A DNA stretch of 64,000 bases from Warburgia ugandensis. Lineage: Eukaryota > Streptophyta > Magnoliopsida > Canellales > Canellaceae. The notes beneath the pieces were generated by a model. It ran no database searches. It was not told where the DNA came from and saw only the letters and a list, made by a program, of their open reading frames with translations. Shown here piece after piece: positions 12,683-58,430 of the stretch; the stretch's first letter is position 1, and every line of letters starts with the position of its first letter. The stretch covers positions 25,689,445-25,753,444 of the forward strand of contig CP141132.1 of assembly GCA_035236585.1 (NCBI GenBank), written 5' to 3'. Made by a program: the position numbers and the translations under genes.

Positions 12683-13576
12683 ACATAGTTTGATTAAAAT
12701 ATAAGTTTTTTTTACTTTACCACTAGATGTAATTGCTTTTTTTACATAGTTAGGATTACATATAGAATAATTGCTTTTCTTTTTGCATACTTTCCTTAAT
12801 CTTGAAAGAATTTTGTACTTTCCCATTTATTTGTGCAGGAATTTAAAGGAGAATAAAGATTTATAGGAAGACTTATGATAGTTTTTATTTTTTATTTGAG
12901 TGGATTGTAATGAGAACGTGCATGTAAATTTTCCTATACCGCATCTCATTTATTTAGAAAATGATTATAATAATACAGATCAATGGTGGGCCATCCTAAT
13001 CTACAAGAGGAGGTGGCACGTACATGGACCCACCCTTGTACAAGAAAACTCTACCTAAGACCAACTTATGAGACTATTCTTCCCTTCTTTCCATTTCCTT
13101 AATTTAGTTGCATTTGGTTGGTAGTGTAGAGCCAATAGAAACATTTCCTTACCTATTGTATTATAGGGTTTGTATTAGATTTATTGCTTTCCCTGCATAT
13201 CAGGGCATGTTTAATTGAATTAAGATGAATATATGTTGATCAACAACATGTGAATTCTCACTAACCCCTACAAGATCAAGGGTGAATTTAGTCACCATCC
13301 CTTGGCCCACTTACATTAATCATCATCCAACATGTAACCCTAGCCTCAATAATTAAATTAAAATCAATCTAGAAGAGACCTTAGCAATTTATGAGTCTCT
13401 TAGAAAGAGGGGACTTATTGCCACTCTAGTGGTTTCAATCTAATCGATTGCATTGATATTTAAATGACTAGCTATACCAACACATTTAATAACTTAGATC
13501 ACTTACAGATGAACAAGGAGGGAGTGAAGCAATTGATTACATTAGGATCTTGAGAAATAAGGCAAGTTTGAGAGAG
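12683..13576 (+). mobile_element. Leader region of element Y
   Basis: Noncoding internal sequence between the priming site and the hAT insertion. It resumes after the hAT element at about 18462 and leads into the gag region. Confidence 0.6.
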
Positions 13577-14029
13577 AGGAGTAGCTATGTAATCGAAGGC
13601 GTGACTAGTCGCATGACTTGTAGCTAGGCGTCAGCTTAGGACTCGAGTTTGGGTGGGCACAAGTGCCATAACTTGCACTATGACTGTTAGCAACTAGTCA
13701 CATGCCTAATTGCACCTTGCGCTTAATGTCCCCTCAATTCCACACACAGCATAAGTGAAATAAAGCCCTACTTTTCATTTCTTTCTTTCTACTTCTTCTC
13801 TGAGAGAGAGGAGTAGCTATGTAATTGAAGGTGTGACTAGTCGCATGACTTGTAGCTAGGCGTCAGCTTAGGACTCGAGTTTGGGTGGGCACAAGTGCCA
13901 TAACTTGCACTATGACTGTTAGCAACTAGTCACATGCCTAATTGCACCTTGCGCTTAATGTCCCCTCAATTCCACACATAGCATAAGTGAAATAAAGCCC
14001 TACTTTTCATTTCTTTCTTTCTTTCTTTC

Positions 14030-18770: not shown

Positions 18771-21340
18771 CCCTTAAGAGACTATTAAATTCCAATACAA
18801 TTTAATTCCCCATCCTATATATAGTGACCTTCAACTAATACAAAGTATTTTTAGTTAAAATTGGGTGTCATCCAACTGCCAACCTTTTATGGTCTAGGTG
18901 GAGAGGAACCCTACCACTATGTCAAGGAATTCCTTGACATGTATGCTATACTTTGATACTAATGACTCAATTAGGTTGCAGCTATTTCCCTTCTCTTTAA
19001 AATATAAAGCCAAGGCATGGCTGAATTTTTAGACGGAGGTTCCATCATTACTTGGGAGCAATTGTCTGAGAAATTCCTGAACAATTTTTTTCCTATCTAC
19101 AAAACCAATGACCTCTATATAGAAATTACAAATTTTCAATAGAAAGAGGTGAGAATTTTTATGAATGATGGGAAAGGTGGAAGGACACATTGCTCAAATC
19201 TCCTCACCAATGTTTTGAGAAATGACAACAAATACAATATTTCTATGAAGGTTTGACTCCACAGAACTGACATACAATTGATACCATTAGTGGTGGGGCG
19301 TTTTGGACCAAAAGTGATATAGAGAGATGGAATTTCTTTGAAAATCTATCTAAGAATTCCTAGCAATGAACTATTCTACCCAAACAAAAAAATTTCCACT
19401 ACCTCTAAGGAAAAGTGGTATATACGAGATAGGGGACACACTTGACCTCTATAACACAATAGACACATTGACAAATTAGATGGATAAGTTTGGAAGTATT
19501 CTTACTAAATTAAGGGAAGTTGTGTCGACATGAGAAATCCACTATGTAACCACCACCACCACCACAGGTGTGTTTAATTTGTACTAGTGCGACACACCTA
19601 TTGCTTCATGCCCCTCCAACTCCACCTTTCGTGAATTTTTTTTGGAACAAGTGAATGCATTAAATGCATTCAAACATCCTGGCACCCATAATCCATATTC
19701 TAAGACATGCAATTTTGGATGGGATAAGCATCCCAATTTCTCATGGTCTTAGAATCATCATGGAGGACCATCTAGGATTCCCCCTAATAAACCTTTCCCT
19801 TGAGCTTCAACTCCATAGTAACATTTACCACAACAATAGTTTCCTCTACAACATGGGAAGAATCTTTAGAAGAGATCATGAGTTTATTTATGTAGAATTT
19901 AATAGAATCCTGCAATAGTGTTAAACAAAAAATGCAGGCCCACTTGCAATCTATTGTGCAGTTGGAGCACCAATTTGGTTAAATAGTTGCTTCTCTTATT
20001 GAGAGAGAAAAGGAAAAATTTCCTAGTCAGCTTAAGCCCAAGCCTAAGGGTTTGCATGAGATTGGCAAAACTACTAATGAGAAGACATTTTATGAACACA
20101 TCCAATCCATAACTATCCTAAGGAGTGGAAAATCAATAAATAATCTGGTAGGGACATTGAAAAACTTCATAACAATGTGAGCCTTGTAAAGAATTAAAGC
20201 TCCTCACCCTAATCCTAAACCACATTATATTCCAAATGCTCCATTTCCTTAGTGTCTCAGAATGGTTAAGAAGGATAATAATTTTGATAAGTTAGTACAT
20301 GTGTTCAAACAAGTGAATATCAATTTCCATTACTTAATGTAATCAAAGAGATCCCTTCTTATGCCAAATTTATGAAAAACCTCTATACCCATAAAAGAAA
20401 ACATCAGGTGCAGAAGAAAGCCTATCTTGCCGTATTAAGCAAGCTTAATTATGAAACACAAAATCCCATTGAATTATAGTGATTTTGGATGCCCCACTAT
20501 ATCATGTGTGTTTGTGGACCACACAATTTATAGGGTATTACTTGAATTGGGGTAAAGTATTAACCTATTACCTTATTCTGTATATAAGGAATTAAGTTTA
20601 AGTAAGATGAAAAGGACTACCATCATACTACAATTGACACATAGGCCAGTTAAAGGTTCTCATGGTGTGGTAGAGAATGTATTGCTTCATGTTGAGAAAT
20701 TTTTATTTCTAGTAGACTTTTAGTCTTAAACATATTGCCTATAGCACATTCTTGTAGTCAAATTGTACTCATTTTGTGATGGACAACCAAAATTTTAAGA
20801 TTGTTATGAAGTAAATACGATATAGAGTCTACCATCCCTATCATCCTCTAGTACTTATCCTCTTGAGGCCTGTCTAGCTCATTTTGGTTTTGATGATTTC
20901 GATATAGATATCTCAAATGACGAAGTAAATGTTTTACTTAATACTGCGCCCTTAATGGACATTATAAAATGGAAAGCCCAAGTAGGGTCTATCACATTTC
21001 CTGACTTCCTATTTGAGCCCTTCCTTACATAAAATACACATGATTTGAACCTATCACTTGTCATAGAAAGTGCACACTACGACAAGTTCAGTTCATCCAA
21101 TCCCTTGCCTGTTACCCTAGAGTTTGATATAGAACTAGAAGGAGAGTCAATTGTGTTATGACCAAACATCTACAAACTCCAGGGTATATAGAAGATAGTA
21201 CTAAGGGTATAAACTCCATTGCTTCTGTACATCAAGATACCAATGAAGAACCTTTTAGGGAAATGCAGAGTGAGCTTAGCCCTAACTTTTAGGAAGATGT
21301 AACAAAGGACGATTTTTAGCTTTTTGATGTTGGCATCACA
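18771..21340 (+). mobile_element. Element Y gag and protease region, fossil
   Basis: The gag region at about 18850-19400 contains PTFYGLGGEEPYHYVKEFLD and LQLFPFSLKYKAKAWL, the usual capsid-region wording of plant Ty3/Gypsy gag. The protease neighbourhood at about 20350-20720 reads YAKFMKNLYTHKRKHQVQKK and later INLLPYSVYKELSL, parallel to the block at 1800-2080, so both belong to the Athila/Tat group. Broken, many breaks. Reverse transcriptase, RNase H and integrase are not seen in this element. Confidence 0.82.
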
Positions 21341-32114: not shown

Positions 32115-32117
32115 TTT

Positions 32118-32129
32118 GGTATCAGAGCT
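32118..32129 (+). promoter_or_regulatory. Primer-binding site of element Z (initiator-Met tRNA)
   Basis: Perfect TGGTATCAGAGC directly downstream of the LTR terminus; the best-preserved priming site in the window. Confidence 0.92.
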
Positions 32130-35100: not shown

Positions 35101-36654
35101 TATTTTTAGAACTTGTTATGATTGTTACAAGTTCTGGGTGATACCAATTGATGAAATTAATACACTGATGGTATGTATAAATATGATGGACTGAATTTCT
35201 AAAGGTTATTAAGATGAGTCATGATTATGTGGTGAATGATGTTTTTGTATGTTCCAAGACTTTGAGGAGTACAAGAAGTCCTTGTGCATTATTTTGAGTA
35301 TCTAAAAGACTCATCTTTTGTGATAAATGTATGTGAGTATGGATTATGGTCAAAGAAGATGAATTTTCTTGACCGCGATATCTCTATTAATAGAGAGACT
35401 GTTTATCGAGACTGTGATGAACTGAGACTAGCCAAACTAGTGACTAAGCTTGATAGTCTCCTTAGTCTGGTGAATTATTATCGCTGGATGATTGCATATA
35501 TTAGCCTAATTTCTCATGAAGGTGAGAAGTGTGACTGTAAAGTATGTTAGAATGAAAGAATTTTCTTATGTGTAATCTAGTTCTCAATTATGGCGTATAC
35601 TTGTGAGTAGCCGATGAGGGCGGCTGATGAGGGTGGGTGCTAGAGGTAGGCTTCTAGTTGGTGAGCTTTTAGGTGGCATGCTTCGAGGTACTGACAGTAC
35701 GATCGTGTTGTGAATCTGATTTTGATTGGCATATGATTGCCTATTATTGAGTTGGTATGCTCTAATTTTGAATGGCATATGATTGCCTATTATTGAGCTG
35801 GTATGCTCTAATTTTGATTGGCATATGATTGCCTATTAGTGAGCTAGTATGCTTTGATTTTGTTTGGCATATGGTTGCCTATTTGTGAGTTGGTATACTC
35901 TGATTTTGATTGGCATATGATTGCCTATTATTGAACTGGTATGCTCTAATTTTGACTGCATATGATTGCCTATTATTGAGCTGGTATGCTCTAATTTTGA
36001 TTGGCATATGATTGCCTATTAGTGAGCTAGTATGCTTTGATTTTGTTTGGCATATGGTTGCCTATTAGTGAGTTGGTATACTCTGATTTTGATTGGCATA
36101 TGATTGCCTATTAGTGAGCTAGTATGCTCTAATTTTTATTGGTCTATGATTGCCTATTAGTGAGCTAGTATGCTCTAATTTTTCTTGGCATGGATTGCCT
36201 ATTGATGAGCAAATATGATCAGGGTTGGATTGGCATATATTGCCTGTTTATGAGTTGAAATAACATGATTCAGTTGAGATGCATTACACATTGGCGAGGA
36301 ATTGTGCTCTGGTATAGATTGGGAGAAGATTTATGTATATATGTGATGAGATGCTTAGATTGTATTGATTTGGTGATTTACTTATACTAGTTCTTGGATG
36401 AGAGTGTGATTTATGTTAAGTGCATTATATGTGGTTATGACATGTTCTAACCATAATATGTGTTAGTTATTTTGGAAGGGTTGAAATATACCCTGATTTA
36501 TTTATACAAGTTGCTATATGAGGGGATGACATGGCATGGAATTGTTATTGATATTGACTGGGGGAAAATTTTGATATAATATATAGATTTTATGATGTGG
36601 GGATGTTTTTTCAGAATTATTGAGGAATGATATGTGCAAAATTTTTGGATGAAA
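32130..36654 (+). mobile_element. Element Z internal region: gag, zinc knuckle, protease, reverse transcriptase fossil
   Basis: The gag-like region runs from about 32270. Near 34024-34085 there is a CCHC-knuckle relic (CFDHGELGYFFRDYP). Protease follows at about 34200-34370 (TRILLDLGSSHPHSLS, a variant of the aspartic-protease D-G-A/S block). Reverse-transcriptase pieces lie at about 34780-35100, and from about 35290 to 35520 is the end of RT (NFLDRDISINRE, then LVNYYRWMIAYI). The lineage is chromovirus (Tekay/Del type) by wording and by the priming site. Old, many breaks. From about 35560 the sequence is noncoding and includes a minisatellite. Confidence 0.83.
35715..36265. repeat. 46-bp minisatellite, about 12 units
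   Basis: A unit of 46 bp built on GGCATATGATTGCC and TATGCTCTAATTTTG recurs at about 35728, 35774, 35820, 35866, 35912, 35957, 36003, 36049, 36095, 36141, 36186 and, degenerate, 36231. Units 3-5 and 7-9 share private variants (TTTGGCATATGGTTGCC, GGTATACTCTGA), giving a second period of about 184 bp. It lies inside the 3' part of element Z. Confidence 0.92.
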
Positions 36655-36912: not shown

Positions 36913-38682
36913 TTCTGGTGGATGCGTGATCATTGCATCAACATAGCAAATAAGGAACATAGAGTTTACTTGATTGTCCTTAGGATCTCAAATTATGATG
37001 TTATCTTGGGCATGGACTGGTTAACCCAGCATGGAGCAATGATTGACTATTGCAAGTAGAGAGTTACTTCCATGAACCAAGAGGGGACTCCTATATTTTT
37101 CAAGGGAGATTAAATATGGTAAGAATGGTTGTCATTTCAGTCATGAAGGCTGCATGATTGATTCCTATGTGGTGATAAGCCTACTTGGCCAGTATAGTTT
37201 CTTGGGAAGGAACTTAATAGAAGATAGATGATATTGATGTTGTTTAGGAATTTGAGGACGTCTTGCCAGTGCAATTGCCCTAATTGGCACCTAGAAGGGA
37301 TATGGACTTCACCATTGAATTGATGCCAGGGATTGCACCCATCTCCAAGGAACCATATAGAATGGCACTAGTAGAATTGAAGGAGTTAAAGGTGCAATTA
37401 CAAGAGTTGTTGGACTAAGGATTTATTCATCAAGGTGTTTCACCTTGGGGAGCCCTAGTCTTATTTGTCAAGAAGAAGGATGGGTCATTGAGGCTATGCA
37501 TATATTATCGATTACTGAATAAAGTTACGATTAAGAATAAGTATCCCTTACCTCCCATCAATGACCTCTTCGATTAGTTGCAATCTAGTAAGATCTTTTC
37601 AAAGATCGATTTGAGGTCAGGGTATTATTAGTTGAGGATCTGAGATGAGGACATCTACAAGATAGTTTTTCATGCATGATATGGCCATTATGAATTTCTA
37701 GTAACACCATTTGGCCTAACAAATGGTCCTGCTATATTTATGGATTTTATGAATAGAATATTCAAGGAATATGTTTAAAAATTCAGCATTGTATTTGTTG
37801 ATCATATTATTATCTATGGTAAGATTTTGGAGGAGTATAGGGAGCACTTCCAAATTGTATTAATAACACTTCAGATTGACCATTTTTATGTAAAATTTAG
37901 TAAGTGTGAGTTTTGGCTCAATCAAGTCTAATTCCGTGGTCATATCATCTTCAAAGATGGAGTAGCGATAGTTTGTAAAAATGTAGAAGCCAATAATGAT
38001 TAGGAGAGACCTAAAGTGGTTTTTGAGATTCATAATTTTTCTTGTTTAGGTGGGATATTATAGGAGATTCATTGAAGGATTTTCTTGCATTGCTCAGCCT
38101 TTAACATAGTTGACCTCGAAGGAAACAAAATTTCAATGGACAAATGAGTGTGAGCAGAGTTTTCAAGAGTTGAAGAGAAGTCTCACCACAATGTGGGTTT
38201 TGATCTTATTAGTGGGTTGTGGTGGATTTGTTGTGTACAATAATGCTTTTGGCAAGGGTTTAGGTTGTGTATCATTGTAACATGGTAAGGTAATCGCATA
38301 TGCATCTAGACAACTAAACACTCATGAGGTGAATTGTCCCACACATGATTTGGAGTTAGCTACAATGGAAGTTGGACCACATCATGATGGACTTTATAGT
38401 GTGACTACTAAGAACTTCTTGCAGACACAACATCATATGGGTGATTGCGGACATATTGACTAAGTTTCCACATTTCCTTTGTATTAGACAGAAGTAGTCA
38501 CTAGAGAGTCTATCCAAAATACATATCAAAGATGTCATGAGTGTACATGGTGTGCCTTTGACTATCATATCGAATAGAGATAGTAGGTTTATTTCTAATT
38601 TCCAGCAAAGTGGACAAGAAGGTTTGGTATTTCTACTGGATTTAGTACAACATTTATCTTGCAGATTCATCAATAGTCCAAG
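36913..38682 (+). mobile_element. Chromovirus-like element S: protease end, RT, RNase H, first part of integrase
   Basis: At about 36985-37065 is ISNYDVILGMDWLTQHGAMI, the protease-to-RT junction of chromoviruses. The RT region (37240-37980) includes [13 protein letters not shown]-type sequence near 37535. RNase H ends near 38370 with [20 protein letters not shown]. Integrase-core sequence (VHGVPLTIISNRDSRF) lies at about 38540-38595. The integrase region is interrupted at 38683 by the small-element cluster and resumes at about 47963. Broken, many breaks. Confidence 0.87.
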
Positions 38683-38769
38683 TGTAAAGCCTGGGCTCCC
38701 ACAGTCACAATATTGTTTGCTATCGAGTAAGTGGATAATATTGTGATTGTGGGAACCTTGGTTATTACA
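38683..38769. repeat. 87-bp mini-module with long inverted termini
   Basis: TGTAAAGCCTGGG and CACAGTCACAATATTG at the left are mirrored by CAATATTGTGATTGTG-like sequence, then CCTTGGTTATTACA, at the right, leaving a loop of about 18 bases. An initiator-Met-like priming site TTGGTATTAGAGC follows at 38771. This is the smallest complete module and a strong hairpin. Confidence 0.8.
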
Positions 38770-38998
38770 GTTGGTATTAGAGCAAGTTCCCCTCATGGTG
38801 GGGCTAGCTACTCATTGTTAGTGAGGATGCAAGTTCCCTAAGGGGGGAAGAGGGGGCCTTGTGGCTCTAAGCTTGACAGGTCCAAGGTGGGCTCTCAGGG
38901 GGGTGTTTGCCTAGGTGACCCCTAGAATTAGTCCCATACTTCTCGAGGATAGGGAGCTGTGTGGGTTATAAGTGTTCGGGGAACTCGTAAGGTCACAA

Positions 38999-39370
38999 TG
39001 CATTTTGCAGGCAGTCCCAATGTGTGGTTCTTGATAGAAACAAAACCTTGCAGGCTGTGCCAAGGTGGCATTCCCAAAGAGAACAATATTGCATCTGCTA
39101 TGCACTCTGATACACAAAACAACGCATTCTATAGGTTGTCTTAAGGTGGGATCTTGATAGAAGCAAAACTTTGTAGGCTGTGCCAAGGTGGCATTCCAAA
39201 AGAGGACAATATTGTATCTGCTTTGCACTCTAATATGTAGAACAAGGTGTTATATGGGCCGTCCCAAGGTGGGATTTCTGATAGAAGAAAAACCTTGAGG
39301 GTCGTGCCAAGGTGGCATTCCTAAAGAGGACAATATTGTATCTACTATGCACTCTAATACATAGAACAAT
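38999..39370. repeat. 124-bp tandem subrepeat, three units
   Basis: Markers GCAGTCCCAATG (39011), GGTTGTCTTAAGG (39135) and GGCCGTCCCAAGG (39258) define a 123-124-bp period. Each unit carries AGAAGCAAAACC-like, CCAAGGTGGCATTCC and GAGGACAATATTGTATC strings. The same subrepeat recurs at 44511-44880 and about 45930-46230, and in inverted form inside the 270-bp modules. Confidence 0.85.
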
Positions 39371-39860
39371 GCATTTTCCCTTCAGAGAAGAGCAAAGCCA
39401 TGTAGCTTCGGCTAGAGTCAACAATATTATGACTGTGGGAACCCTGGCTGGTAATAGAGCCAGTTGCTCTTGTGGTGTGGGCTAACCAATCGTTGTCTCC
39501 CCAAGGGGGCCTTGCAGTCCTAAGCCTGACTAGTGCAAGGTGGGATCTTAGGGGGGTGTCTACTTGGGTGACCTCGAGAATTAGTCCCATACCACCTGGG
39601 GAGAGGGAGCCGGGGGAGTTATAAGAGTTCGAGGAACGCTTACAATCACAACACATACTACAGGTAGCCCAAGGTGGGATTCCCAATAGAAGCAAAACCT
39701 TACGGGCCATGCTAAGGTGGCATTCCTAAAGAGAACAATATTGTATTTATTGTGCACTTTGATACACATAACAACACAATTTTGCTTGGGGAAGAGCAAA
39801 GTTGTGCTGCTTTGGCCAAAGCGGACAATATTGTGATTATGGGACCCCCCACTGATACAA

Positions 39861-39925
39861 TTAGTATCAGAGCCAGTTCCTCTTGTGGTGTGGGCTAGCC
39901 TCTTATTACAGTTGCTCTAATACCA
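39861..39925. repeat. Face-to-face priming-site junction, copy 1
   Basis: TTAGTATCAGAGCC on the plus strand and, 40 bases later, GCTCTAATACCAATTG, its inverse. The spacer contains CAGTTCCTCTTGTGGTG and TTATTACAGTT. The same arrangement occurs at 46631-46694. Confidence 0.75.
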
Positions 39926-40767
39926 ATTGCAACTGTAACACCCCAGGATTCCAACAGTCACAATATTATCCGCTTTGGGGCCCCCATACACCCCTCATGG
40001 ATTTGTTCTTCTCTAGTTTAAGGAAAAACACATTGTGATCGTTAAATTCCCTGAACTCATATAAACAGCCCAGTTTCCTCTCCCTAGGCGATGTGGGACT
40101 AATTCTCTATCCTTCACCCTAGCTTAAAAGCCTCCAACCTTCTCTTGGCCTGCTCTCATTGGCCCAGAGCGTCCTCGCGTGATAGCCATAACCAGGCACC
40201 CATGTGCGGCTAGCTACCACACTGCGAGGGGAACTGGCTCTAATACCATTTCATATGTGTTTTGGCTGGATCATAGGGGTTTTCAATGGGTTTATTACAA
40301 GTATTTACATTATACATGTCAACATTTCTAGACAAAAGATCATGTATAAAACACGTACTTCTCATGTAGATGCATTCATAAAATTCTCCTACCTTCAAGT
40401 AGTGATCCATCTCTTCAGATCTTCCATGATCCTGACTGACGTATCTAATCTGTAAATCCATACATACTGTTAATATTTATACAATCTGAATAGTCCTATC
40501 TACATCCTTTGTCTGATCTTGTCCTTTGATATAAAGGATCTAGATCTTGTGTATTCCTTTCTTTGATCTTGATCTTTCATAGATCCTTTGATCAACAATT
40601 TATACTTGTTGATAAAGATCAAGGGCTTAGATCTTCTATCATCTAGTTCTTCTTTGAACTAAGTTTAGTTGTTTGATCATCCCTAAGGAGGATGATCTTG
40701 GTTCTCTTCCTTGAACCATAATTGATCAAGGGTTCAGATCTTTTATTCTACTTGATCTATGTTGCAA

Positions 40768-40805
40768 GCAATATATATATATATATATATATCATCATCA
40801 TCATC
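40768..40805. repeat. AT and ATC microsatellites
   Basis: An AT run of about 22 bases followed by four to five TCA units. Confidence 0.85.
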
Positions 40806-40925
40806 AAGAAGTATTTATTTCTTTTTATTGTTCTTGATCATTCAAGATCCAATGGATCTTGTTTGATCTTCCTTATCTTACTTACAATTTTTATTAGGGT
40901 TAGATAATTTACTAACCTTTTATGC

Positions 40926-40927
40926 TC

Positions 40928-40957
<30 letters not shown>
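40926..40957. repeat. ATT microsatellite
   Basis: About ten TTA/ATT units. Confidence 0.88.
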
Positions 40958-40958
<1 letters not shown>

Positions 40959-41485
40959 ACCAGTTAATGTTTTACTGGTTGAAGATAACTTATTTCAGCC
41001 TAAGTCTACACTGCTCCTCTTATTTCCAATTGGAGAAGGCTTATTAGCTGAATGGGTGAACACAAAGTGGTTACTTCAATCCTCATGTAAGGAGGCATTT
41101 AGACCTCACAAACGTCAATGGAAAGTAGGAGAAGAGCGAGGTTCTATTAGAAAACCCCCTTAACCACTATGTTCACCATTCACTAGAGTGGCCTTAGCTC
41201 AACCTTTCATAAGGTTCTTATGAACATGTTAACCCTAGGTACTCTATCTAATTGATTTTAATTAAGTCCATGAACATTTAAAATTTCATTCATGGGGTTT
41301 ATTATTCTCCTAGTTTGGGCCAAGGATTTGATGATCCTTATATTGTCCTACTAACTATAGCCCTTACTAATTAAGTCCAAGTCAAATAATTCACTCTTAT
41401 TTGTGTCATGAAACTCTACTTTCTCATTAGATTTCATTTTTGGTGTTTTATGCTCTTTATCTCATAACTAGTTTAACAATTAAAG

Positions 41486-42517
41486 TAGTTATAGGGGTGA
41501 GCTAGGAGATGTTAGTTAGGTAGTTGTGAGTCAAAAGACCTTAAGAGTTAGTTTCATATCGCTAATGGGAAAGTGACTGGGCTGGTTATAAGGGTTTCAG
41601 GAACTCTATCTATCACAATGCATTTTCCCTGGGAACTTGGTTTTCATGGGGGAACAAAGCCATGACTACTGTCGGTGTATGGGCATCATCCATGGACAAC
41701 AGACAATATTGTGACAGTTGGACCCTTAGGGTGTGATAAATGGTATCAGAGCCAAACCTTCACCCGGTGTGTGGCTGGTTGGCAGACGGGGACGTCCATT
41801 CTGTAGTGGGGGTGAGCCAAGAGATGCTAGTTAGGCAGTTGTGAGGCAAGAGACCTTAAGAGTTAGTCCCATATCGATAAGGGGAAAGAGACTAGACTGG
41901 TTATGAGGGTTCAAGGAACTCTACCTGTCACAATGCATTTTCCTTGGGAACTTGGTTTCTAGGGGGAACAAAGCTGTGACTACTGCTGGTGTATGGGCAC
42001 TATTAGTGGACAACAGACAATATTGTGACAGTTGGACCCTTGGGGTGTTATAAATTGATAAGAGTTAGGAGGACTTTACATGCAACAAGGCCTTTTCCCA
42101 CAAGAGAAGAACAAAGCTATGCGGGGCTGGGTGATATGGGCCCCAGTCTCCAAAGTTGACAATATTGTTGTGTATGGGCCCTCGGGCTATTATAAATGAT
42201 ATCAGAGCTGACCCCTGACCCGATGTGTGGTTGGTCAGCGGACAAGGACGTCTGTTCCCTAGTGGGGGTGAGGGGTGAGCCAAGAGACGCTGGGTAGGCA
42301 GTTGTAAGGCAAGAGACTTTAAGAGTTAGTCCCACATTGCTAAGGGGAAAGTGAGTGGGCTGGTTATAAGGGTTCAAGGAACTTTACCTGTCAAGGTCCC
42401 TTTTCCCTGGGAACTTGGTTTCCATGAGGGAACAAAGCTGTGACTGCTGTCGGTGTATGGGCACCATTAGTGGAAAGCGGACAATATCTTGATAGTTGGA
42501 CCCATGGGCTGTTATAG
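41486..42517 (+). repeat. Three tandem copies of a second small-element subtype
   Basis: The string GGGGTGAGC followed by AGAGAC/GCTAGTTAGGCAGTTGTGAG-like sequence recurs near 41488, 41808 and 42265. Each copy leads into a TAGTCCCA(C/T)AT block, a GGGAACTTGGTTTC block and a GACAATATTGTGACAGTTGG-like end, then TGGTATCAGAGCC (41741) or TGATATCAGAGC (42197). Spacing is about 322 and 457 bp. This looks like LTR-internal-LTR concatemers made by unequal recombination. Confidence 0.75.
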
Positions 42518-43250
42518 TAATAGTTGAGGGTCCCACAGCCACAATATTATTTGCGTTGGGTTTTCCCTCATAGCTTTGCACTCCCTCAAAGGGAAAACAC
42601 AATGTTTTGTGTATCAGAGTGCACAACAAATACAATATTGTCCTCTTTGGGAAGGCTACCTTAGCACATCTTGTAAGGTTTTGCTTTTGTAGGGAATCCC
42701 ACCTTGGAACAGCTAGTAGAACGCATTGCGATAGTTAGAGTTCTCTGAAGTATTATAACTAGCCTAGTTCCCTCTCCCCTAGCAATTTGGGTCTAACTCT
42801 TAGGGTCACCCCCACAATCCTATAGCTTGACCCCCACCAAGACAAGCACGTCAGGGCCCCCTCTTCCCCCCTTAGGGAACACACAACCTTGTGTGCATGA
42901 ATGCTCACATGCAGTTAACAGCCACACCATAAGGGGAACTAGCTCTAATATCAGTTGTAATAACAAAGGTTCCAATAGTGAGATATTGTCCACTTTGGCA
43001 CAGATTGCCCCACGGCTTTAAAATGCACCATAAATGTTGGAGATTCCTGAACTTCTATAACCTGCCTAGGTCCCTTTCCCCTAATAGTATGGGACTAACT
43101 CTTGGGGTCACCTAGGCAGATAGCCCCTTGAGAACCCACACTAATTAGGTTTAGGGTCACAAGGCCCCCTCTTCCATCCTAAGGGAACCCGCATCCTCGC
43201 AGACAATGAGTGGCTGACCCACACCACTAGGTGAATGGGCTTTGATACCA
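42518..43250 (-). repeat. Composite module pair C-B, copy 1
   Basis: Minus-oriented module C (about 42518-42955) followed by minus-oriented module B (42956-43250). Their priming-site-like ends are GCTCTAATATCA (42942-42953) and GCTTTGATACCA (43239-43250). The same pair in the same order lies at 46697-47447. Confidence 0.7.
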
Positions 43251-44018
43251 ACTGCAACTACTAGGGGTTCCAAAGTCACAATGTTGTATTTGCTGTGCAC
43301 TCTGGTACACGAAACAACATGTTCTATGGGCTGTCCCAAGGTGGGATTCTTGATAGAAGTAAAACCTTATGGGTCGTACGAAGGTGGCATTCACAAAGAG
43401 GACAATATTGTATATGTTGTGCACTCTGATACATGGAATGTCACATTTTTCTTACAAGGAAGAGCAAAGCCATGCGACATTGGCCAAAGCAGACAATATT
43501 ATGACTGTGGGAACCTTGACTGTTACAATTAGCTGCATGGCTTATCTATTACGTGTAGGAAAAATGTGTTATTCTATGTATAAGAATGCATAAAAAATAT
43601 AATATTGTTGTGTCTAGGAATACCACCTTGGCACAGCCCAAAGAATGCATTGTTCCTTGTATTAGAGTGCATAGCAGATACAATATTCTTACTGCGGGAC
43701 CCCTGATTGTTACACTTCGTATCAGAGCCAATTCCTCTCTTGGTGTGGACTAGCTGCTTGTTGCGCACGAGGACATGGGTTCCCTAAGGGAGGAAGAGGG
43801 GGCCTTGTGGCCATAAGCCTGATTGGTCCAAGGTGGGCTCTCAGGGGGGTGCCTTCCTGGGTGACCCCGAGAGTCAGTCCCATATTGCCTGGGGAGAGGG
43901 AGTTAGGCGGGTTATAAGTTTTGAAAATTTTAATAGTTGTGATGTGTTTTAAAGCCGTGAGGTACTCTTTGCCAAAGCAAACAATATCACAAAATTGGAA
44001 CCCTAGTTATTACAATAT

Positions 44019-44291
44019 TGTAAGAGTCGGGGTTCCACAGTCACAATATTGTCTGTTCTAGGTTTTCCCTCATAGCTTTGCTCTTCCCTGAAGGAAAAAT
44101 GCATTGTTTAATGTATCAGAGTGGACATCAAATACAATATTCTCCTCTTTATGAATGCCACCTTGGCATGGCTTATAAAGTTTTGCTTCTGTCAAGATCC
44201 CACCTTGGGATGGCCTGTAGAACACATTGTTTCATTTATCAGAGTGGACAACGAATATAATATTGTGACTATGGGACCCTCGACTGTTACA
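44019..44291 (+). mobile_element. Complete LTR-like module A, copy 1
   Basis: Starts TGTAAGAGTCGGGG, ends CGACTGTTACA, about 273 bp, with inverted termini, and is followed one base later by TTGGTATTAGAG. Its left neighbour ends TTACA four bases before, giving a near-palindromic junction around 44005-44040. Confidence 0.78.
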
Positions 44292-44510
44292 GTTGGTATT
44301 AGAGTCAGTTTCCCTCATGGTACGGGCTAGCTGCTCCTTGTTCGTGAGGATGCAGGTTCCTTAAGGGGGGAAGAGGGGGCCTAACTGGTCCAAGGTGGCC
44401 AGTTAGGGTTTTTTTTTTGCCTAGGTGACCCCGAGAATTAGTCCCATACTACCCATGGAGAGGTAGCAGGGTAGGTTATAAGAGTTTAGGGAACTCTTAT
44501 AGTCACAATG

Positions 44511-44880
44511 CATTTTGCAGGTAGTCCCAAGGTGTGATTTCCGACAGAAACAAAACTTTGTGGGCCATACCAAGGTGGCATTCCCAAAGAGGACAATATT
44601 GTATTTGTTGTGCACTCTGATACAAGGAACAATGCATTCTGCTAGTTGTCCCAAGGTGGGATTCTCGATAGAAGCAAAACCTTGTAGGTTGTACCAAGGT
44701 GGCATTCCTAAAGAGGATAATATTGTATCCGCTTTGCACTCTAATACATAGAACAATGAGCTCCGCAAGCCATCCCAATGTGGGATTCTAGAAAAAAGCA
44801 AAACCTTGTGGGTCATGCCAAGGAGGCATTCCTAAAGAGGACAATATTGTATCTGCTATGCACTCTGATCCATGAAGCAA
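44511..44880. repeat. 124-bp tandem subrepeat, second array
   Basis: Units marked GTAGTCCCAAGG (44521), GTTGTCCCAAGG (44645) and CCATCCCAATG (44770), with a period of 124-125 bp. Confidence 0.85.
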
Positions 44881-45247
44881 TGCATTTTCTCTTCAAGGAA
44901 GAGCAAAGCCATGAGACTTTGGTCAAAGTCAACAATATTGTAACTATGAGAACCTCGTCTATTACAATTAGTATTAGAGCTAGTTCCCTGCGTGGTGTGG
45001 GCTAGCCACTCATTGACTACGAGGATGAAGGTTTCTTAAGGGTGGAAGAGGGGGTTTTGTGGCCCTAAGCTTGAATGGTCCAAGGTGGCTCTCAAGGGAG
45101 TGTCTCCCTGGGTGTCCTTGAGAGTTAATCCCACATCACCCAGGGAGAGTGAGCTAGGTGGGTTATAAAAGTTTGGGAAACTCTAACCGTTGTGATGCAT
45201 TTTAAAGTAGTGAGGCACTCAGTGCCAAATCGAACAATATCACACTA

Positions 45248-45292
45248 TTGGGACCCTAGCTATTACAATATTGTAATAGTCAGGGTCCCACA
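45248..45292. repeat. Palindromic module junction
   Basis: GGGACCCTAGCTATTACA and TGTAATAGTCAGGGTCCC face each other across ATAT. Two modules meet end to end in opposite sense. Confidence 0.85.
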
Positions 45293-45542
45293 TTCACAAT
45301 AATGTCTATTTTGGGTTTCCCCTCACAGCTTTGCTTTTTCCCATGGGAAAAGCATTGTTTTGTGTATCAGAATGAACATTGGATACAATATTGTCCTCTT
45401 TGGGAATGCTACCTTGGCACAGCCCACAAGGTTTTGTTTCTATTGGGATTCCACCATGGGACAGCTTGTAGAACACAGTGTTTTGTGTATTAGAGGTCAC
45501 AATGGATATAATACTGTGACTGTGGGGCCCCCGAATGTTACA
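45272..45542 (+). mobile_element. Complete LTR-like module A, copy 2
   Basis: Starts TGTAATAGTCAGGG, ends CGAATGTTACA, 271 bp, and is followed by a good initiator-Met site TGGTATCAGAGC at 45545-45556. Same organisation as 44019-44291. Confidence 0.8.
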
Positions 45543-45682
45543 GCTGGTATCAGAGCTAGTTCCCCTCGTGGTGTGGGATAGCTACTCTTTGTCCGCGAGG
45601 ATGCAAGTTCCCTAATGGGGGAACGAGGGCCTAGCTACCCTAAGCCTGACTGGTCCAAGGTGGGCTGTTAGGCATGTTTCTG

Positions 45683-45834
45683 TGTAGCATCCTTGATTTT
45701 TAGAACTCTTAATGTTCTTAAATTAAGACTTAAATATACATAAAATATAGGAAATTTAATATATTCTTTTTCATCCCAATTTAATATTTTCCAAACTTTA
45801 CCAAATTTGGGATTTAAAAATTAGGGATGTTACA
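45683..45834. mobile_element. 152-bp miniature element inserted in the cluster
   Basis: Begins TGTAGCATCCTTGATTTTTA and ends TTAGGGATGTTACA, so its ends are inverted repeats of about 20 bp. Flanks TTCTG and GTCTG agree at 4 of 5 bases, and removing it restores the GTGTCTGCCT(G/A)GGTGACC string seen elsewhere in the cluster. It could be a MITE or a very small LTR-like element. Confidence 0.7.
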
Positions 45835-46630
45835 GTCTGCCTAGGTGACCTTGAGAGTTGTCCCATACAACTCGAGGAGAGGGAGCAGGGAGGGTTATAA
45901 GAGTTTGAGGAACTCTTACGGTCACAATGCATTCTGTGGGTAGTCCCAAGGTGTGATTCTTGTATTTGTTGTGCACTTTGATACTTGGAACATTGCATTC
46001 CACTGGTCATCCTGAGTGGGATTCCCAATAGAAGCAAAACTTTGCAGGCCATGCCAAGGATGCATTCCTAAAGAGGGAAATATTGTATCCACTTTGCACT
46101 TTAATACACAGAAGAATGCTTTCTACGGGCCATCCCAAGATGGGATTCTTGATAGAAGAAAAACCTTGCAGGTCGTGCCAAGGTGGCATTCCCAAAGAGG
46201 ATAATATTGAATATGCTGTGCACTTTGATACATGGAACAATGCATTTTCCATTCAGGGAAGAACAAAGCCTTGTGACTTCGGCTGAAGTCGACAATATTG
46301 TGATTGTGGGAACCTTGGCTATTACAATTGGTATTAGAGCCAGTTCCCCTCATGGTGTGGGCTAGCCACTCATTGTTTGCGATGATGAGGGTTCCCTAGG
46401 GGGCCTTGCTACCCCAAGCCTGACAAGTCCAAGGTGGGATCTCATTGGGGTGTTTGCCTAGGTGACCCTTAGAGTTAGTCCTATATCGCCCGGGGAGAGG
46501 GAGCTGGGTGGGTTATAATAGTTCATGGAATTCTTATAGTCACATTTTTCCTTTAAGGAAGAGCAAAGTTGTGCAGCCTTGGAAAAAAAGTGGACAATAA
46601 TATGACTGTGGGATCCCTTATTGGTATAAT

Positions 46631-46694
46631 TGGTATCAAAGCTAGTTCCTCTCATGGTATGGGGTAACCACTTATTACAGTTGCTCTGATATCA
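46631..46694. repeat. Face-to-face priming-site junction, copy 2
   Basis: TGGTATCAAAGC, a spacer with TTATTACAGTT, then GCTCTGATATCA. It parallels 39861-39925 closely, so the arrangement is inherited rather than accidental. Confidence 0.75.
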
Positions 46695-46696
46695 AC

Positions 46697-47447
46697 TGTA
46701 CTAACTAGGGGTCCCATAGTCACAATATTGTCTACTTTGGGTTTCCCCTCATAGCTTTGCTATCCCTCGAAGGGAAGATGCATTACTCTATGTATCAGAG
46801 TGCACAACAGATACAATATTGTCCTCTTTGGGAGTGCCACCTTGGCATAGCTAGCATGGTTTTGCTTTCGTAAAGAATCCCACCTTGGGACAGCCCGTAG
46901 AATGCATTGTAACAGTTAGAGTTCTTGAAATTCTTATAACTAGCTCAGTTCTCTCTCCCTAGGCAATGTGGGACTAACTCTTAGTACCACCCCCACAATC
47001 GTATAGTTTTACACCCACCATGGGCCTCCCACCAAGATAGGCATGTCTAGGCCTCCAATTCCTCCCTTAGGGAACACGTGTCCTCGCTTGTGTGAGTGCC
47101 CACGTGTGACTAATAGCCACACCACGAGGGGAACTAGCTCTGATACCAATTGTAACAGCCAGGGTTCCAATAGTGTGATATTGTCTACTTTGGAACAAAG
47201 TCTCTTAAGGCTTTAAAACACATCACAATTGTTGGAGTTTCCTGAACTTCTATAACCTGCCTAGTTCCCTCTCCTCGGGCAGTATGGGACTAACTCTCTG
47301 GGTCACCCATGCAAACACTCGCCTAGGAAGCAACCTTGTACCAGTCAGGTTTAGGGTTGCAAGGCCCCCTCTTCCCTTAGGGAACCCCCGTCCTGGTGGA
47401 TGACAAGATTTTAGCCCACACCCTGAGGGAAACGAGCTTTGATACCA
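46697..47447 (-). repeat. Composite module pair C-B, copy 2
   Basis: Module C (46697-47150) followed by module B (47151-47447), both minus-oriented, with priming-site-like ends at 47137-47148 and 47436-47447. Same order as 42518-43250. It is followed directly by a short module A (47450-47661) whose other end has a rightward priming-like site. Confidence 0.7.
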
Positions 47448-47962
47448 ATTGCAATATTTGAGTGTCCCACAGTCACAATATTGCATTAGAGTGCATAACA
47501 GATACAACATTATCCTGTTTGGGAATGCCACCTTCACACGGCTCGTAAAGTTTTGCTTTTGTCAAGATCCCACCTTGGGACGGCCCACAAAGCACATTGT
47601 TCTATCCATCAAAGTGTATAATGAATATAATATTGTGACTGTGGGATCCCCAGCTATTACAGTTTGTATCAAAACTAGTTTCCCTTGTGGTGTGGGCTAG
47701 CCGCGAGTTGTCCATGAGGATGTGGGTTCCCTAAGGGGGGAAGAGGGGGCCTTGTGGCCTTAAGCTTGACTAGTCCAAGGTGGGTTGTCAGGGGGTGTCT
47801 GCTTGGGTGACCTCCAGAGTTAGTCCCATACTGGCTGGGGAGAGGGAGCTAAGCGGGTTATAAGAGTTCGGGAAACTCTAGTAGTTGTGACGCATTTTAA
47901 AGCTGTGAGGCTCTCTATGCCAAAGCGAACAATATCACACTGTTGGAACAGCAACTACTACA

Positions 47963-48392
47963 TGAAGACGACCATATAAACACTTGAAGATATGCTACAA
48001 CCATGTGCTTTGGAATGGAAAGGAAGTAGGGATGAACACTTACCTTTAGTAGAGTTCACCTACAATCATAGCTATCACTTTGGTATAGGCATAACACCTT
48101 ATGAGGTGTTGTATAGCCAACCATGTCGAACATCTGCTTCTTGGAGTGATGTAGGGAAATGCTAGTTTGTGAAGCTAGAGTTGATAGAATAATGTATGGT
48201 GAGAATAACTCAGAAGAGAATACTTGTAGCTCACAGTAGACAAAAGTGCAACGTGGAGAATAGGCATAGAGATTTAGAGTTTGAGCAAAGACTGTGTGTT
48301 CCTGAAGATCTTGTCGATTAGAAGTGTGAAAGAGAAGTTGAGCCCCAGATTTGTAGGACCCTTTAGAATTCTCAAGAGAGTTGGCTGAGTAG
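47963..48392 (+). mobile_element. Element S integrase region, second part
   Basis: After the small-element cluster, integrase-type sequence resumes in the plus sense. Recognisable blocks are LEDMLRA-like sequence near 47978, PLVEFTYN-like sequence near 48045 and a PRFVGPF block near 48341-48361. It is cut at 48393 by element W. Broken. Confidence 0.75.
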
Positions 48393-49741
48393 TGTTGTTC
48401 TACCACAAGTGCATGGGCAATTGTAGTGTAGCGTATGCAAGTACGGGTCGATCCCACAAGACTCACCTTGATAATTTGGAGTTTAAATACAATTTAATTA
48501 TTAAAAATTAAAAATAAGTGACACAAATTAAATGAAAGTGCAATCAGAATTCAGATATATTTAATCAATGAAAATTACAGAGTTCCAAATTCAAAAAGAC
48601 AGGAAATTAAATAAAAAATAAATATTTACTTCCCTAGCTTCATACTGCCAATTTGTTGAAATCTGGTCATTTTGGAGTCGGCCAACCTTCATAAATCTCT
48701 CCAACATGTCCATGATTAAAGATCCAATGGTTAGAATAGGTAGATTCTCAAAAATCTTAAAGATTTGGACTAAACAGTGATTTTGGGTTTTGATCAGCTT
48801 AGATTGATTTTTGGAGTTCAGATTAAAGGTCAGGGATGTTGAATAAGCTAAGTGATGTCCTATGAATGCAATGTAAAAGTTAATTAAAAATTTGATATGA
48901 AACAGAGGAGAAACAGAGAGATCTTGTTTGTTAAGGCTAACCCATTAATTATGTTAAGCCTTAATTAAATCAGCTCAGATTGTGCAGTTCCTAGATAATA
49001 GATCACAGACAAAATAAAATTGGAATAGAAATAGGGACATAAAAGGAATTAAAACTGGGATACAGGTGGAATTTTAATTAAAGGGGGAACAGTAAAATTG
49101 GAATTTGAGGGAAAAATTAGATTTAAATGAGAAAATAGAAAATCTATGAAAGGGAAGATGATGAAGATGGAGGAGAAGGGAAGAGGAGGAGAAGAAGGGA
49201 GAAAGAGGAAAAACAGAGGAAACTCATGTCGGGTTTCTTCCTTTGGGTCGTTCGGTGTGATGAAAGGAAAGGAGGTGGAGCAAAGCGATAGAGAAAGATG
49301 GTGGAGTGTAGAGGGAGAAGGAGGAGCTGGGCTGTGACAGACAAAGGGGTCGAGCAATTACTAGTGCTGAGTTGTGTGGATAGAACAGAGAGGGTGGTTG
49401 GGTAAAGAGAGAAAGGGAGACATAGGAGGTGTTGACTTTGGGTTGTGGTTTGGTAGTGCTAGGCCAGTGTGGTGGAGTAGTGAAGTGGGAACAGAGAGAG
49501 GGAGTGAATGAAGGGGTGAAGGAGAGGGAACGCAGGGGAGACGATGCTGGTGCAATCTGTCTGGTAGTGCTAGACCGACAACGTTGGCACTGTGAATAGA
49601 GGGGCAGTGAAGTTTAGGAATATGCCTGCTAGTGAAGCAAAGAGATGAGACAGAGCGGATGCCGGCCGACATTGGAGATAGAAGAGAGCTGGGTAGAGAG
49701 CAGAGAATGGTGGGATTAATCAGGCTGCATCGGTGTGTTAG

Positions 49742-57090: not shown

Positions 57091-58430
57091 TGTTGTTTTA
57101 CCACAAGTGCATAGCCTATTGTAGTGTAGCATATGTAAGTATGAGTCGATCCCACAGGACTCACCTTAATAATTTGGAGTTTAAATAAAATTTAATCATG
57201 AAAATAAAAAATAATTGACACAAATTAAATGAAAGTTGAATCACAATTCAGATATATTTAATCAATGAAAATTACAGAGTTCCAAATTGAAAATGATATG
57301 AAATTAACTAAAAATAAAGAAATATCTACTTCCTTAGCTTAATACTATCAATTTGTTCAAATCTGATCATCCTGGAGTCGGCCAACCTTCATAAATCTCT
57401 CCAACATATCCATGATTAAAGATCCAATGGTTGGAATAGGCAGATTCTCAAAAATCTTAAAGATCTGGACTAAACAGCGATTTTGGCTTTTTATCAACTT
57501 AGATTGATTTATGGAGTTCAGATTAAAGATCAGTGATGTTGAATAAGCTAAGGGATATCCTAAGAATGAAATCTAAAAATTAATTAAAAATTTGATCTAA
57601 AATAGAGGAGAAATAGAGAGAGATCTTGTTTGCTAAGGCCAACCCATTGATTAGGTTAAGCCTTAATTAAGTCAGCTCAGATTGTACAGTTCCTGGATAA
57701 CATATCATAGACAAAATAAAACTAGAATAGAAATAGGGACACAGAAGGCATTAAAATTGGGACATAGATGGAATTTTAATTAAGGGGGAAGGGTAAAATT
57801 GGAATTTGAGGGAAAAAATCAGATTTAAATGAGAAAACAGGAAAATCTATGGAAGGGAAGATGATGAAGATGGAGGAGAAGGGAAGAGGAGGAGGAGAAG
57901 AAGGGGGAGAAAGAGGAAAAATAGAGGAAACTCATGTCGGGTTTCTTCCTCTGGGTTGTTCAGTGTGATGAAAGGAAAAGATGTGGAGCAAAGAGACAGA
58001 GAAAGATGGTGGAGAGTAGTGGGAGAAGGAGGGAGTTGGGCTGTGATAGACAGAGGGACTGAGCAATTACCAGTACTGAGTTGTGTGGACAGAATAGAGA
58101 GGGTGGCTAGGAAAAGAGAGAGAGGGAGATAGAGGAGGTGCTGATTGTGGGTTGTGGTTTGGTGGTGCTGGGCTGGTGCGGTGGAGTAGTGAAGTGGGCA
58201 CAGAGAGAGGGAGTGAACTAAGGGGTGAAGGAGAGGGAACGTGGGGAAGATGATACCAATGCAGTCTGTCTGGCAGTGCTAGACCGACGACGCTGGAGCT
58301 GTGAACATATGGGCGGTGAAGTTGAGTAATATGCCTGTCAGTGAAGCAATGAGATGGGACAGAGCATATGCCAGCTGTCGTTGGAGATAGAAGAGAGCTG
58401 GGTAGAGAGCAGAGAATGGTGACATGGCCA
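57091..58430 (-). mobile_element. 5' LTR of element W, partial
   Basis: Minus-strand LTR matching 48393-49711 in order. Similarity stops after AGAGAATGGTG. The LTR end lies at 57091 beside the priming site, which fixes the orientation of W. Confidence 0.83.

Follow-up and report, generated by a model that had tools for sequence, protein, structure and literature searches.

How do small repeats without genes come to lie end to end in both orientations? A 9.3-kb block in the genome of Warburgia ugandensis raises this question. The block occupies positions 38683 to 47962 of a 64,000-nucleotide stretch of contig CP141132.1 (hereafter the window; assembly GCA_035236585.1, forward-strand positions 25,689,445 to 25,753,444). 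A preliminary description had seen in it a dense two-way cluster of noncoding TG...CA modules, possibly a hybrid of terminal-repeat retrotransposon in miniature (TRIM) and foldback element that spreads as concatemers. Our analysis makes it near certain that the block is a TRIM array: it is an old, decayed pile of protein-less TRIMs, placed in both directions and end to end. The cluster consists of two copies (A and B) of one composite of about 2.7 kb and a shorter derivative (D). As to its origin, we lean slightly towards an array that was formed in reverse transcription, by a strand switch and end joining, and that entered a gypsy-like gene once.

The boundaries proposed earlier are exact, and the sequence at both edges agrees with them: TGTAAAGC starts at 38683 and ...CTACTACA stops at 47962. 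The dot-plot comparison suggested for this region, carried out as a self-comparison of the window, showed two-orientation repeats filling the 9.3-kb block throughout (about 68–86% identical among the best-scoring matches listed) and only one 35-bp match at E ≤ 1e-5 in the rest of the 64-kb window. The cluster holds 169 inverted pairs of at least 40 bp. With open reading frame (ORF) length as the criterion, it is noncoding, as had been claimed: among the ORFs listed, the longest lying wholly inside it measures 131 amino acids and is in repeat sequence. One pattern in a collection of prokaryote contigs and two in a collection of viral contigs gave 0 matches each, which carries little weight given what these collections contain.

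The individual units share a common order, namely a U5 end (...ACAATATTGTGACTGTGGGACCC...TTACA), two nucleotides (generally AT or GT), an initiator-Met primer-binding site (PBS), a short interior, a polypurine tract (PPT) and a long terminal repeat (LTR). The LTR begins with TGTGG in several units and contains a box resembling the upstream sequence element (USE), a TATA box, R and U5. LTR1 is about 580–590 bp long and carries 123/124-bp tandem repeats, as in the plus-strand copy of about 580 bp at 44382–44964, whose start is blurred by a deletion. LTR2 is about 210 bp long; the example at 47753–47962 (plus strand, 210 bp) reads TGTGG...ACA, and an example of the PPT, GGGGGGAAGAGGGGGCC, lies at 47735–47751 on the same strand. 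A second TRIM subfamily, T3, has an LTR of about 235 bp.

With up to 2 mismatches, initiator-Met PBS 12-mers occurred 11 times on the plus and 8 times on the minus strand of the cluster. Setting aside the minus-strand match at 44614, which falls in a 124-bp repeat, reproduced the 11 right-pointing and 7 left-pointing sites of the preliminary description; a weak twelfth plus-strand site at 47664 has 3 mismatches. Because the PBS pattern at 3 mismatches was no more frequent in the whole window than expected by chance (50 matches versus a shuffle mean of 45.3), signal density was tested inside the cluster, by comparison with 100 dinucleotide shuffles. There, we counted 17 PBS 15-mers (≤ 3 mismatches; shuffle mean 0.33, maximum 3) and, each with ≤ 4 mismatches, 18 USE-gap-TATA arrangements (mean 0.3, maximum 2), 9 PPTs (mean 0.23, maximum 3) and 21 U5 ends (mean 0.01, maximum 1). 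Fourteen of the 18 USE-gap-TATA matches are in register with a unit and 4 are off register.

Several features that define TRIMs are present. A PBS stands beside the 5' LTR, usually 2 nt past the LTR end; a PPT precedes the 3' LTR, with losses or alterations in the A2, A3, B2 and T3 units; two direct LTRs enclose a short interior, D reading LTR1(+)-PBS-interior-PPT-LTR2(+) and T3 contributing an LTR pair that is 86.7% identical; and coding capacity, judged by ORF length, is absent. Long terminal inverted repeats, as in foldback elements and miniature inverted-repeat transposable elements (MITEs), are found as well. A transposase-type duplication free of LTR-element signals, as in MITEs, is not, and such signals occur throughout the cluster. 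The proposed hybrid is therefore partly borne out, in that TRIM anatomy (PBS, PPT, U3 with TATA, direct LTRs) is combined with foldback structure and a concatemer-like order. The cluster gave no Rfam match to 5S rRNA of the Cassandra type at gathering level or E ≤ 10, no match to a retrozyme-type hammerhead ribozyme at E ≤ 10 and no match to U6 or tRNA; its 13 Rfam matches at E ≤ 10 are all sub-threshold hairpins.

At the next level, copy B (45272–47962, 2691 bp) reads module, LTR1(+), LTR1'(+), junction J2, LTR1(−), LTR2(−), module, LTR2(+). Copy A (38683–44014) has the same order once a nested element, N (39934–42516), is set aside, and measures about 2.74 kb without N and one 5-bp duplicate, compared with 2.69 kb for B. 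The two copies are colinear in pieces, with matches of 783 bp at 75.7% identity (42528–43290 with 46709–47487) and 770 columns at 71.9% (38905–39650 with 45835–46544). J2, a PBS(+), a short loop and a PBS(−), lies at 39862–39925 in A and, with the same layout, at 46631–46694 in B; it is common to both copies, as is the A4/B4 unit. D (44019–45267, plus strand) comprises only a module, LTR1(+) and LTR2(+), which is what a deletion would leave. Both composites contain a symmetrical unit of the form LTR2(−)-interior-PBS(−)-module-PBS(+)-interior-LTR2(+), located at 42956–44014 in A (arms 75.4% identical over 293 columns) and at 47150–47962 in B (75.3% over 296 columns).

The lengths of the five TG...CA modules (87, 462, 273, 271 and 212 bp) fit the 80–460 bp given before; two of the five now begin with TGCAA instead of TGTAA. 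M_A1 (38683–38769) is an internally shortened 87-bp hairpin (fold z −11.2), M_A2 (43253–43714, 462 bp) combines a module in reverse with a truncated module, M_D (44019–44291) measures 273 bp, M_B1 (45272–45542, 271 bp) consists of a reverse R-U5 that runs into a forward U5 tip, and M_B2 (47450–47661, 212 bp) has outward-facing PBSs on either side. The R-U5 of LTR1 matches the modules in one sense along most of their length and the U5 tip matches them in the other. Comparison with 12 U3 pieces yielded only matches of 9–17 nt (best E 0.003), whereas the U3 control matched in 12 of 12 cases. Judged from these matches, the modules are inverted R-U5 fusions that are joined at the palindrome ACAATATTGT and have no detectable U3. 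They occupy the place of the 5' LTR and are not the ordinary LTRs of the family. Read by eye, the modules offer five inversion points that can be located (one on each side of M_A2, and one each in M_D, M_B1 and the right side of M_B2), and a ACAATATTGT-like palindrome lies at every one of them; the length of M_A1 does not suffice to locate its point, and M_B2 has a same-strand deletion on its left. The palindrome has 20 exact occurrences in the cluster, where 10-bp palindromes of any kind reach 4.2 per kb, compared with 1.4 per kb elsewhere in the window.

Where the copies meet, both junctions, A|D and D|B, read TTACA-ATAT-TGTAA, with the ATAT spacer at 44015–44018 and 45268–45271, respectively. 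When a primer site comes next, for instance at 47149, the same LTR2 end reads TTACA-AT-TGG, and the joint therefore corresponds to two such ends, both with their two pre-PBS bases retained. Retroviral-type integrases trim such terminal bases, and TTACA-ATAT-TGTAA would be the expected product of ligating unprocessed cDNA ends (CA plus two pre-PBS bases).

The outer limits of the cluster lie inside a decayed frame that we tentatively take, from a motif in it, to be a Ty3/gypsy-like integrase. Its left part (...STTFILQIHQ-stop-SK) ends exactly at CCAAG (38678–38682), and its right part ((TG)K TTI-stop-TLEDML) resumes the same codon after the TG of TGAAG (47963–47967). The same codon on either side of the break argues for a short target duplication, and CCAAG and TGAAG, identical at 3 of 5 positions, are its probable copies; a decayed 5-bp duplication probably flanks the whole block.

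Two further elements are inserted in the composites. N (2583 bp) is nested in A, has U5-type ends that both face outward (TGTAACACCCC and TGTTATA) and is flanked by GCAAC and GTAAT, probably a decayed 5-bp duplication; the homologous site in B is unbroken, runs colinear and has the 5-mer only once. Three T3 LTR copies lie inside N (41499–42516, plus strand), the first two being 86.7% identical. Between a reversed PBS and the T3 units, N also contains an AT-rich stretch of 1.24 kb (about 40255–41490), around which no target duplication was found by eye. The other insertion, in B1, is a 152-bp TG...CA element of a different family (45683–45834) with inverted ends of about 20 bp and flanks, TTCTG and GTCTG, that are identical at 4 of 5 positions.

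How might such an array have arisen? Formation during reverse transcription, followed by joining before integration, is probably the better account. The nascent minus strand would have switched strands at ACAATATTGT, a palindrome that reads alike on both strands. The switch would have linked a forward U5 tip to the reverse R-U5 and so given a module both of whose ends are U5 tips. Second-strand transfer from the PBS on either side of this module may then have generated the symmetrical unit. Both outer ends of that unit are U5 ends and so could serve integrase. The composites would have been joined before integration, each end keeping CA and two pre-PBS bases; the resulting sequence (TTACA-AT plus AT-TGTAA) is what both joints display, and the joining itself is our proposal. 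The array would next have entered the gypsy-like integrase gene once, with the 5-bp duplication that is partly visible in the flanks. Later, N and the 152-bp element would have inserted, and the copies would have diverged by about 20–25%. An autonomous LTR element of the host would have supplied the proteins for this work.

Several observations weigh against this course of events. ATAT is present on both sides of D, which could instead have inserted separately with a 4-bp target duplication ATAT. Because several module junctions are so alike, one ancestral event is likely, and the junctions probably derive from this single event and not from five independent switches. The integrase identity of the gypsy-like flanks, read from a motif, is tentative, and comparing their sequences with Pfam and PDB gave 0 hits for either of them. 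CCAAG/TGAAG and GCAAC/GTAAT are each identical at only 3 of 5 positions, and each pair is weak alone. Finally, when 15 units were aligned over their interior and U3 blocks, the resulting tree was poorly resolved, with only 3 of 12 inner branches well supported. T3 and A3 are remote from the other units (about 52–60% identity), which are about 71–83% identical to one another. A4 and B4 form a pair (support 95/92) and A6 is closest to B6 (81.1%), but most units lack an A-B pairing, A1 being closest to B2 (83.2%) and A5 to B6 (77.1%).

The main competitor of an origin in reverse transcription is an ordinary TRIM array that was scrambled in place by nested insertions, unequal crossing-over and template switching of replication forks on the chromosome. 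N and the 152-bp insert are indeed later insertions, the units have diverged about equally, D resembles a deletion product between direct repeats, and palindromes are generally known to provoke chromosomal rearrangement as well. However, scrambling alone predicts neither the ATAT spacer with two pre-PBS bases at both joints, nor the restriction of the modules to R-U5, nor a duplication around the whole block, and we regard it as possible but less likely. That the array moved whole from elsewhere as one long read-through RNA and inherited its odd joints would agree with available reports of multi-unit Cassandra transcripts (PMC7215508) and of tandem-array TRIMs flanked by just one target duplication (PMC4717578). 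Canonical reverse transcription would, however, place U3 at the left end, where a reversed U5 tip is observed, and this route is improbable. Least probable is a foldback or MITE family that was mobilised by a DNA transposase and carries its retroelement motifs by chance: long inverted ends are present and so are small TG...CA modules, but PBS, PPT, USE-TATA and U5 recur in LTR order, with 11 plus 7 PBS copies, and the duplications are 5 bp long and not clearly of a transposase type.

The LTRs also carry a promoter-like layout. In all 16 units scored, a gap of 24 bp separates the best USE-like box from the best TATA-like box (TTATAA) downstream of it, with 1 to 5 combined mismatches per unit (example at 47822–47863, plus strand). 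The majority box, GTCCCATATTG, agrees with RTCCCACATCG at 9 of 11 positions, both misses being C to T. According to the available text of PMC9845283, this is the plant USE consensus, and the USE of U6/U3 genes stands one helical turn closer than in RNA polymerase II genes (four turns). The combination of USE and TATA is like that of type 3 RNA polymerase III (Pol III) promoters of U6/U3 small nuclear RNA (snRNA) genes, and the 24-bp gap is near U6-type spacing; here, in contrast, no snRNA lies downstream. The layout may serve a Pol III role. Because TTTT runs follow about 30–40 nt past the TATA box in several units, a useful, long Pol III transcript is doubtful.

The inverted PBS junctions gave sub-threshold matches to MIR845_1 (39851–39936 and 46614–46711). 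Against RF00901 (MIR845; gathering score 81), J2 of B scored 22.5 bits on the minus and 18.8 on the plus strand, and J2 of A scored 17.6 bits. Since J2 of B gives a better score with mir-4504, an unrelated human family (26.7 bits), and the M_A1 hairpin matches MIR7526 (29.8 bits), any hairpin may score, and bits alone mean little. More telling is the layout: the MIR845 consensus reads like an LTR-end CA, AU and PBS, a loop, then the reverse, as in J2, with a loop of 19 compared with 36 in J2, which scores far under the gathering level. J2 folds more strongly than shuffled sequences (z −3.4 to −7.9); the best fold pairs PBS with PBS in B but not in A. As a long shot, reverse transcription might repeatedly yield inverted TRIM dimers as a side product, with PBS(+)-loop-PBS(−) junctions that are the starting form of the microRNA genes (miR845, miR1511) whose products silence LTR elements through the PBS. 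Mature miR845a, as listed in PMC1790633, extends beyond the tRNA CCA end; this extension seems to read as a reversed LTR end, which would not be expected from descent from tRNA alone. As cited in the accessible part of PMC8215267, miR845 and miR1511 are said to have an evolutionary link to tRNA-iMet, which is a rival to this reading. Literature searches, with partly sparse results, returned no account of an inverted-TRIM origin of MIR845.

Around the gypsy remnant, self-comparison of the window detected no LTR pair by which it could be dated. An exact initiator-Met PBS at 32117–32128, after a ...GTCACA end, may be the one from which the gypsy element hosting the cluster was primed. Direct repeats of 1.3 kb adjoining the remnant (48393–49712 and 57091–58421, 87.9% identical) are probably the LTRs of another element. 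Elsewhere, the window contains a 46-bp tandem repeat of 11.6 copies (35715–36245), a 232-bp tandem duplication with 98% matches (13569–14022) and, on the minus strand at 19110–19215, a plant C/D small nucleolar RNA resembling snoR71 (42.1 bits versus a gathering score of 40).

As a mere TRIM array, the locus is ordinary. If the joints are what they seem, it preserves intermediates of reverse transcription that are normally lost (the strand switch at a palindrome, unprocessed ends, end joining), shows a route by which LTR elements gain two equal U5 ends, and would offer a concrete source of hairpins against the primer site. Tandem and inverted TRIM arrays are already known; unusual here are the symmetry of the ends, the way the copies are joined and the arrangement of the promoter. 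In the available text of Gao et al. 2016 (PMC4717578), tandem-array TRIMs are reported from 35 of 43 plant genomes, and a maize Zma-SMART array "with two inverted TRIMs" has a single target-site duplication, CTTCA. The premise of the preliminary description that TRIMs lack an inverted arrangement consequently does not hold. No inverted arrays were found in the accessible part of the 2012 SMART paper (PMC3281118). The tandem arrays of Gao et al. resemble ours in their gene-less small LTR units, one 5-bp target duplication (probable in our case) and reported inversion. The present block differs from them: it spans about 9.3 kb, holds two composites as well as a derivative, has R-U5 fusion modules placed between units of opposite orientation, and is joined through ATAT spacers, of which the available text of Gao et al. 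gives no description. Cassandra TRIMs, as far as PMC7215508 was accessible, likewise have an initiator-Met PBS, a short interior, long arrays with multi-unit transcripts and a proposed Pol III promoter; our cluster differs in that it has no 5S rRNA match and its promoter-like element is USE-TATA. It may also bear some likeness to a cucurbit TRIM. Partly sparse searches of the accessible literature gave no account of U5-U5 TRIM composites, ATAT joints or USE-TATA in TRIM LTRs. Compared with the known arrays as available to us, this locus differs in its joints, its R-U5 modules and its composites with two U5 ends.

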